Shown here: one piece after another, positions 20,777 to 22,456 of the stretch
How the letters are laid out: every line of letters begins with the position of its first letter
How positions within the stretch are numbered: position 1 is the stretch's first letter
Source of the DNA: a virus
IMG/VR virus record: IMGVR_UViG_3300017765_000018
Coordinates: 1-32,880 of that record
DNA: 32,880 nt
Strand: one strand, 5' to 3'
Made by a program: the position numbers and the translations under genes
Notes under the pieces: model-generated
What the model was told of the DNA's origin: nothing
Databases searched by the model: none
The model's input: the letters and a program-made list of their open reading frames with translations, nothing else

Positions 20777-20796
20777 GGGCGGAAACTCCGACAAGG

Positions 20797-20991: not shown

Positions 20992-21299
20992 TTACGGGAC
21001 ATCCAAGCAGATGAGCCAAAAAACGCGCCGACAATACCAGCGCCCGAAATGTAGAAAAGATTGCTCAAATCAGCCAGTGCCTGCACCCGCTCGACTGACA
21101 CGACGAACATCGCCGCTGTGAACGCACCCATTCCGACCAGTGTTGCCGTGGCCATCCGACGTTGCGCCCGTAGTTTCCGCAACTCGTGTTCAGCCTGCCT
21201 AATTTCTTTGGCGTGGGCGAGTTCTTCATCTGTGATTTCACCATCGCCGTCCAGATCATACTGAGCATATTCGGTGTCCTTTTCAAATTTCTTGGTCAT
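20985..21299 (-). CDS. EF-hand membrane protein
   Basis: The 104-residue protein has a canonical 12-residue calcium-binding EF loop from Asp15 to Glu26 (DLDGDGEITDEE), a charged helix (AKEIRQAEHELRKLRAQRR) and two hydrophobic segments (ATLVGMGAFTAAMFVVSV and FYISGAGIVGAFFGSSAW). It is very similar to small EF-hand proteins I recall from marine phages. It overlaps the upstream membrane-protein gene by ATGA and is translated from the same transcript. The pair may act together in the inner membrane; function unknown. Confidence 0.8.
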   Translation of the reverse strand: MTKKFEKDTEYAQYDLDGDGEITDEELAHAKEIRQAEHELRKLRAQRRMATATLVGMGAFTAAMFVVSVERVQALADLSNLFYISGAGIVGAFFGSSAWMSRNK

Positions 21300-22041
21300 T
21301 CCATTGCCTCTTTGATTGCCTTGAGAGTCTCCTGCACCGTCATTTCTTTCTTGGCCTTGGGGTCATACTTGCATTGAAATTCGTGTGGGATGTGATCCGA
21401 CTTTTTGAACACCATAGATTCGACGGTATTGTTAGCGCCCCTGTAAACACAAACGATGGTGTTCTTGTTCATTGACTCACACTTAGCCTTTCGACAGGTG
21501 GTCATGATGTCGGCGGCGCTTGCTGTGTGCGCCTTCAAGAGCAACACAAATCCAATCAGAACACCGCCACCCAAAATTACCAAAAAAATCCAAGCAAAAA
21601 TCTCGACAAATTTTCTACGCTTTTCACGCTGGGCATAGAGTGTTTCTTGACGTTGCTTTCTGATCTTGGCTTCAGTTGAAATCAAATTATTCCATGCCTT
21701 CTGACCAAGCGTAAGCTGTATGAATTGTCTAAGTTCCTCGCGCTGTTTTTGAGCTTTTCGTTTTGAGGCGAAGATAGACAGCGCCTCTTCTTCAACTGAT
21801 TTTCCAGCAAAGAGCTTGCGAAATATAGGGGGATTTTTGGCTTCTCGTTCTGCCTGATCCAGATCAGAGAGCGCACCCATCCACCGTCCGATATCGGACA
21901 TCATCGATTCTACATCGCGTCCTGCTTGCCACGCCCCCCTCTGAACTAAGCCAGAGGGGAGCGCGGCCCTATTGCAAAACCCTTTTTGATGGTGGTGAAA
22001 GCCGCGCTTGCGGTAGCCATCGCCGTGACAGGATCAACCAT
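21296..22041 (-). CDS. Membrane protein gene split by a 47-nt hairpin insert (possible recoding)
   Basis: Reading from ATG at 22041, 24 codons give MVDPVTAMATASAAF and TTIKKGFAI, then the frame passes into a hairpin and stops at TAG. The remainder continues in the -1 frame from GGA at 21922: GRDVESMMSDIGRWMGALSD, KNPPIFRKLF, a coiled coil, one transmembrane helix (FAWIFLVILGGGVLIGFVLLL) and a Cys-containing tail (TTCRKAKCESMNKNTIVCVY). I recall homologues in which GF-x-x-GRD is continuous. Joined, the protein would have about 232 residues. If no recoding occurs, only a 202-aa protein from an internal ATG at 21904 with a weak ribosome site would be made. The partner EF-hand gene follows by overlap. 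Confidence 0.7.
21923..21969 (-). other. 47-nt hairpin insert inside a coding sequence
   Basis: In the coding-strand RNA, a 16-bp uninterrupted stem (positions 21952-21967 with 21928-21943, two G-U pairs) closes an 8-base loop that contains the UAG stop. On the opposite strand the two G-U pairs become A-C mismatches, so the fold suits this mRNA. The insert begins with a GGG glycine codon and is followed by a GGA glycine codon. A G GGU UUU heptamer (21976-21982) lies 8 bases upstream of the stem. Confidence 0.7.
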
Positions 22042-22103: not shown

Positions 22104-22430
22104 TCAAAAAAACTCAGTAATTAAAACGGGTGGGTCATAGGTTTCCAGTATCTTTTTCTTCAGCCGATACACAGATGTTATGGTTGCCTTGCTTTTGACA
22201 TCCTCAATGACCCGATTTCCTGACTTGGTAAGGTAACTGAAATCGGCAACATACTTGCCGACCTTGGTGCCGTTCACCATCAGCGGAAACTCAGGTTGCA
22301 GTCTCAGGTTGGAGATGTGTCCCGCCTTTTCCAACAGCACAAGATCACTATACCTTGCCGCCTCTTTCTTTGAGTCAAAGGTGATACCATCGAGGACTGT
22401 TTTTTGAGCGTTGTATTTGTTTCGGCGCAT
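22104..22430 (-). CDS. DUF1064-type phage endonuclease
   Basis: The 108-residue protein matches the DUF1064 family: NKYNAQKTVLDGITFDSKKEAARYSDL, LRLQPEFPLMVNG, YVADFSY, then VIEDVKSKAT. Asp63 with Asp77-x-Lys79 form a PD-(D/E)XK-like active site, typical of small structure-specific or Holliday-junction-type nucleases. The ATG at 22430 is preferred to a TTG one codon earlier. It is transcribed away from the adjacent early operon, with the operator-promoter of the exonuclease gene just behind it. The gap of about 60 bases downstream holds nothing recognisable. Confidence 0.82.
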   Translation of the reverse strand: MRRNKYNAQKTVLDGITFDSKKEAARYSDLVLLEKAGHISNLRLQPEFPLMVNGTKVGKYVADFSYLTKSGNRVIEDVKSKATITSVYRLKKKILETYDPPVLITEFF

Positions 22431-22456
22431 CAAAATTCTCGATCATCAAAAATAAA

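Follow-up and report, generated by a model that had tools for sequence, protein, structure and literature searches.

A hairpin insert at a conserved glycine codon of a phage membrane-protein gene, a candidate for translational bypassing

To our knowledge, efficient translational bypassing in bacteria and their viruses has been firmly shown only for gene 60 of phage T4, with other phage cases being suspected. Gene 60 undergoes programmed bypassing of a 50-nt coding gap (PMC11194080; PMC5009743). The gap in the terminase gene of the Streptomyces phage Hau3 is much shorter than the insert described here (PMC5009743), and in the mycobacteriophage Corndog it is an inserted HNH gene, hundreds of bases long, that interrupts the tape measure gene (PMC4351075). 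In the mitochondria of Magnusiomyces capitatus, the inserts known as byps are found at 81 places in 12 genes (PMC5009743).

We analysed a 32,880-nt stretch of viral DNA (IMG/VR virus record IMGVR_UViG_3300017765_000018, positions 1 to 32,880; hereafter the window) in which a phage membrane-protein gene on the minus strand (22041 to 21296) has 47 additional nt at the codon for Gly 24 (Table 1). On the sense strand the gene runs from ATG 22041 to AAA AAG GGT TTT GCA ATA, followed by the insert and then by GGA CGC GAT GTA GAA. The insert (GGG...GCA, 21969–21923) is alien to the family sequence, which resumes at GGA 21922 as GRDVESMMSDIGRWMG... and continues to the stop codon at 21296.

The original prediction had expected an unbroken join in homologues, and had likened the junction to the matched glycine codons and gap of about 50 nt in T4 gene 60. 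All three parts of this were upheld. When the uninterrupted homologue L002 was compared with the window by tblastn, its residues 1–24 matched upstream, ending on GGG, and its residues 24–230 matched downstream, starting on GGA. Residue 24 is matched on both sides, so GGG and GGA both correspond to the single homologous residue G24, and the gap between the two segments measures 47 nt. Further relatives were taken from IMG/VR, with 52 fetched first and then 80 with alignment, of more than 560 that exist; apart from the window, L020, L001/L065 and L003, the alignment rows that too narrow a search pattern had marked as broken were judged continuous by eye. Nearly all of these relatives read ...KKGF(A/Q/S)(I/V)GRD(V/I)ES... 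unbroken. Many N-terminal positions are invariant across the homologues, and the N-terminal segment is also present in the isolated Roseobacter phages CRP-603 and CRP-6 and in Limnohabitans phage DC31. No second intact copy of the gene was found in the carrier sequence examined.

Table 1. Features of the interrupted gene and its surroundings (window coordinates)
Feature	Position	Strand	Basis or remark
5′ coding segment, 24 codons, MVDPVTAMATASAAFTTIKKGFAI	21970..22041	-	alignment with uninterrupted homologues
Predicted helix 1 of the protein (same as 5′ coding segment)	21970..22041	-	L002 model
GGG, proposed take-off Gly codon (G24 of homologue L002), at the stem base	21967..21969	-	5/5 distinct carriers
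Insert (putative coding gap), 47 nt, from take-off GGG up to the last base ahead of landing GGA	21923..21969	-	not in L002 and others
5′ arm of 17-bp stem	21951..21967	-	fold and compensatory changes in 5 carriers
Zero-frame UAG stop in the hairpin loop	21946..21948	-	same position in 5/5 carriers
3′ arm of stem	21928..21944	-	fold and compensatory changes in 5 carriers
Tail AAGCA, stem to landing site	21923..21927	-	variable sequence and length; family 2 CACAA, CACACAA
GGA CGC GAT, proposed landing codon (Gly GGA) with the codons that would be read next	21914..21922	-	carriers 5/5, uninterrupted homologues 0/72
3′ coding segment, GRDVESMMSDIGRW..., downstream ORF to stop	21296..21922	-	ORF list
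Internal ATG, rival start codon	21902..21904	-	AGGA 15 nt upstream, poor SD spacing
AGCGCGGC, 8-nt perfect complement of the stem 5′ arm	22001..22008	-	family 1 only
DUF1064 gene, directly upstream of the interrupted gene	22104-22433	-	matches PHROG for Holliday junction resolvase

In a structural model of the L002 protein (mean pLDDT 74), G24 is predicted to lie in the turn between helix 1 (residues 3–23) and helix 2 (residues 27–52). A fold search with the protein gave no significant match. Members of the same gene family lie near an M15 peptidase (endolysin-like) gene in other phages (L144:4000–6000, L142), a location that may hint at a membrane-protein role in or near lysis. The contig that carries a further relative, L140, has been assigned to a Verrucomicrobiales MAG and matches IMG/VR contig 2816332360_000001 in length and range; a phage contig has probably been binned into this MAG.

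Inserts at this glycine codon were found in five distinct phage genomes (six contigs), which belong to two divergent families. The carriers of family 1 are the window and L020/L055, which share 99.97% identity, together with L001 and L003 (nearby nucleotide identity to the window about 90 and about 84%, respectively), and each has an insert of 47 nt. The family 2 carriers, G002 (L144) with 49 nt and G001 (L146/L156) with 47 nt, are 90–93% identical to each other over most compared stretches. Their version of the gene is divergent and has different neighbours (tail fibre, M15 peptidase). Every carrier comes from a metagenomic contig; the carriers are presumably marine, judging from their relatives among Roseobacter phages rather than from sample records. 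An assembly artefact, named in the original prediction as a way in which it could fail, is ruled out, because other samples yielded independent contigs with the insert whose nucleotide identity is about 84–90%.

Pattern scans of IMG/VR placed the element only at this codon, and the other matches to its core were intergenic hairpins or chance. Records that were truncated when stored may escape such scans, as did G001, which one scan overlooked and another recovered. Several candidates for further copies were rejected: L058 is intergenic, L145, L147, L148 and L150–L154 are intergenic hairpins followed by T-rich stretches, and L149, L057 and L059 bear no relation to the insert. As for further carriers, L159, L160 and L162 proved to be uninterrupted relatives and L161 was unrelated. 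One intergenic hairpin, CCCCTCTGGCTTAGTTCACCAGGGGGGTTTTTT, is conserved in contigs L145, L148 and L151–L154 and has the apical sequence CTCTGGCTTAGTTCA in common with the insert; this hairpin resembles an ordinary terminator.

The 16-bp arms and 8-nt loop described in the original prediction are exact in the sequence. Folded as the sense RNA, the insert gives 17 bp and a 6-nt loop, CUUAGU, at −36.3 kcal/mol (z = −5.9). None of 200 shuffles folded as stably, and no 45-nt segment of the whole contig, with both strands considered, is more stable than this hairpin. The predicted preference for the sense strand was also borne out: the antisense reaches only −28.0 kcal/mol, because the G-U pairs turn into A-C there. 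The UAG of the loop (21948–21946) is in frame with the upstream ATG. At the stem base, the third G of the take-off codon is paired in family 1, and the whole GGG in family 2.

We found no match to the insert among Rfam families, nor any DNA-level match in known phage records or plasmids. The former result bears on the possibility that the insert is removed from the mRNA, either by splicing or by cleavage and religation at the base of the hairpin. The insert is precise and hairpin-sized, and removal would tolerate changes in its length too. However, it belongs to no Rfam family, and we know of no self-splicing or tRNA-endonuclease type element of such a size in phages. We therefore consider RNA removal very unlikely.

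Two further pairings upstream of the take-off codon may be relevant. In the predicted folds of both families, the GGYUUUGC stretch before the take-off codon pairs with the tail and landing site, which, as far as prediction goes, would bring the two glycine codons close together. Secondly, a complement of the 5′ arm as good as AGCGCGGC occurred in none of 59 non-carriers and arose in 6% of synonymous recodings; the upstream complement extends to 8 bp in family 1 but to only 5 bp in family 2. Pairing of AGCGCGGC with the emerging 5′ arm, in family 1 only, would be a possible and no more than suggestive counterpart of the T4 5′ stem-loop, which refolds behind the ribosome.

Across the five distinct carriers, 100% of the cells in the stem were paired, with three pairs altered on both sides and five altered on one side. 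The covariation score of 0.365 dropped to 0.141 or less with the partner slid, and was matched in 3 of 500 shuffles, in a test that ignores relatedness and has in effect two families. Pairing thus appears to have been kept through compensatory changes, though the lower stem differs, and the support for this is good but not that of a large sample. Both the take-off codon, GGG, and the position of the zero-frame UAG, 7 codons downstream of it, are common to all five carriers.

With an insert of 47 nt the downstream ORF is in another frame, relative to the upstream ORF, than with an insert of 49 nt. The tails of G001 and G002 are one CA unit apart (CTCACAA and CTCACACAA), giving a 2-nt difference in the gap, and the downstream ORFs of both are intact despite this indel. 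This would fit a resumption of translation that is independent of frame. In L001 and L003, moreover, there is a UAG in the resumption frame as well, 3′ of the zero-frame UAG. These observations bear on programmed −1 or +1 frameshifting, which the original prediction had listed as a way of joining the two frames. The resumption frame is open through the insert in the window alone; with UAGs in both frames of L001 and L003 no single shift works there, and inserts of 47 and 49 nt require different shifts. Frameshifting is therefore excluded as a shared mechanism, and we regard it as extremely improbable. Judged from these sequences, the gap is one that is absent from the homologues and that would not be decodable by a single frameshift.

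Downstream of the insert, the window and L001 differ by 54 synonymous and 15 nonsynonymous changes, which suggests that the downstream ORF is under purifying selection. In the 42 codons around the insert there were 6 synonymous and 0 nonsynonymous differences between the same two genomes, and the substitutions in the 5′ segment among the family 1 carriers were all synonymous. Codons 6–24 together with the 11 after the insert are nearly frozen, with 0–1 of 20.7 synonymous sites changed, as compared to a changed synonymous proportion of 0.35–0.37 in the adjacent DUF1064 gene. A similar frozen stretch is present in family 2. As a proof of constraint this synonymous suppression is not decisive, since it is also seen in some insert-free pairs, and recombination of the gene start is an alternative that can explain part of the low divergence. 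In the middle of the L003 gene (L003:1030–1420, window about 21836–21470), identity to the window falls to about 63–71%, compared with mostly 80–97% in the flanks, and this divergent part is likely to be a recombination patch inside the interrupted gene. Elsewhere, between converging genes at window positions 20790–20796, L001 and L003 have about 140 nt that are absent from the window.

The same data allow us to weigh whether the gene is simply decaying, or has been inactivated by a neutral palindromic insertion (selfish DNA). The insert does carry a stop codon and does shift the frame. Against this, it persists in five distinct genomes, nonsynonymous change downstream is well below synonymous change, further stops or frame breaks are absent, and the N-terminal segment has acquired only synonymous substitutions within family 1. 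A freshly broken gene, also among the original options, is therefore unlikely, and loss of the protein by either route seems to us improbable.

All five carriers resume at GGACGCGAT, a 9-mer that was found in none of 72 distinct uninterrupted homologues. Its single codons are common among these homologues (GGA in 14/72, CGC in 15/72 and GAT in 26/72), and the chance of a shared 9-mer is about 2e-4, given two independent acquisitions and codons drawn independently. For these reasons, GGACGCGAT would either belong to a landing signal or have moved together with the hairpin as one unit. Immediately 3′ of the 9-mer the carriers keep the codons of their own lineage, G001 being like the insert-free L116 and G002 like L123.

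There has been at least one independent acquisition of the insert, and probably there were two. Because two divergent phage families have the hairpin at one and the same site, the hairpin and the landing 9-mer may together be a small mobile or recombining unit. A link with the neighbouring nuclease was rejected, as the DUF1064 (Holliday-junction resolvase-like) gene is also upstream in L002, which has no insert, and no homing endonuclease was found among the scanned ORFs around the family 2 gene. A wider and distinctly tentative proposal is that marine phages harbour a family of small bypass elements that are mobile. A 47–49 nt hairpin, accompanied by its landing site GGACGCGAT, would spread between phages, always entering a conserved membrane-protein gene at one fixed codon, and would stay harmless by virtue of a Gly-to-Gly hop, with the long perfect hairpin replacing the stop codon and nascent-peptide signal of T4.

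Our preferred explanation is that the insert is a translational coding gap, which ribosomes would bypass from Gly GGG to Gly GGA; we give this a probability of roughly 0.55. Ribosomes would translate the 24 codons and then Gly GGG, where a very stable hairpin of the mRNA begins. From there the peptidyl-tRNA-Gly would leave GGG, the hairpin of 47–49 nt would be skipped, and re-pairing on the glycine codon GGA of GGACGCGAT would allow decoding to restart, yielding the family sequence ...GFAI-G-RDVES.... Ribosomes that did not hop would stop at the UAG in the loop. Both GGG and GGA can be read by tRNA-Gly(UCC). We infer the hop itself, glycine as the take-off residue and the hairpin as the driver.

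Several lines of evidence favour bypassing. Both glycine codons match G24, as in the T4 gene 60 arrangement, and the same codon was hit in each of the five distinct carriers from two divergent families. The stem pairing is conserved with double-sided changes, and the landing 9-mer is confined to carriers (5/5 versus 0/72). The gap length varies with the downstream ORFs intact, and L001 and L003 have UAG in the resumption frame. The N-terminal residues are largely invariant and present in isolated Roseobacter phages, the codons around the insert show synonymous differences only, and there is no second intact gene copy in the carrier sequence examined. A hop of this kind explains the matched glycine codons, the constant GGA landing and the fact that the upstream segment stays coding. 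Other take-off sites fit poorly. Take-off at the last codon before the UAG (GCU or ACU) with landing on GCA was rejected, L001 having ACU, and family 2 having CAA before GGA; a hop from GCA to GCA, conceivable in family 1, would cost the protein a conserved residue, and family 2 offers nothing equivalent. Counting against bypassing, the strongest signals of T4 are missing, GGG and GGA are synonymous rather than identical, the stem of 17–20 bp is much longer than the take-off hairpin of T4, and low synonymous divergence near the insert is also seen in some insert-free pairs.

The original prediction had also offered internal restart in place of bypassing. Here the gene would be split by an intercistronic hairpin: the 5′ ORF would yield a peptide of 31 aa that terminates at the UAG, and the remainder of the protein would be made by internal initiation or termination–reinitiation at ATG 21904, as in T4-type gene 43A/43B and Aeh1 nrdA. 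Phage precedents with intercistronic sequence are known (PMC2988022), the ATG is available in all carriers, and a variable gap length is compatible with this arrangement. The conserved 9-mer offers AGGA as a possible weak SD, and the SD energy calculated for ATG 21904 is −4.1 (contig median −5.85). However, this AGGA is the only SD-like sequence and, at 15 nt from the ATG, is too far away for a normal SD, and the ATG is simply the codon for Met 30 of the native protein. The first 29 or 30 residues, which are among the most conserved in the family, would be missing from the product. Furthermore, neither the fixed CGCGAT after GGA nor the matched glycine codons at the same homologous residue would be accounted for. 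On the sequence evidence a split gene would thus fit less well than bypassing, and we think it unlikely, if well short of negligible. The part of the original prediction that put bypassing forward stands as the better fit compared with internal (re)initiation, but the two are not separable by sequence alone.

A literature search found no report of the element among open-licence papers. If bypassing is confirmed, this would be the second case from nature, and its signals would differ from those of T4. Natural variants in gap length and stem, and uninterrupted homologues as controls, are already at hand. Such a case would reveal the features that are needed to leave one codon and land 47–49 nt away, and would show whether such inserts are mobile.

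Among known systems, the terminase of Hau3 and the tape measure gene of Corndog are alike in that coding continuity suggests bypassing. The T4-type split genes 43A/43B share an insertion that divides a conserved phage gene into two ORFs; unlike these, the present gene has no well-placed SD for the second ORF, its first product would have only 31 aa, and the flanking codons are matched glycine codons. The byps of Magnusiomyces capitatus are also short inserts that are skipped in translation and proposed to be mobile, whereas here we found one site in one gene family, in a bacterial phage and not in mitochondria.

The closest resemblance in arrangement is to T4 gene 60: a phage gene with a gap of ∼50 nt that is absent from homologues, out-of-frame resumption, a glycine codon on both sides with landing on GGA, and a hairpin that has the take-off codon at its base and contains an in-frame UAG. 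The differences lie mainly in the signals. Here the take-off GGG is followed by a sense codon (CCG or GCT), with the UAG 7 codons later, and the stem has 17–20 bp where that of T4 is short. Where T4 has an SD-like sequence, 6 nt before the landing codon, the carriers have AAGCA, CACAA or CACACAA, and they lack the KKYK nascent-peptide signal ∼30 residues before take-off; their nascent chain at take-off has only 25 aa (24 in family 2), ending KKGFAIG or KKGFAVG. The gene is also a different one, and the gap length varies between relatives. The element would therefore best be described as T4-like, rather than as a member of a T4 gene 60-type cassette, and it would work like gene 60 if bypassing is the correct explanation.
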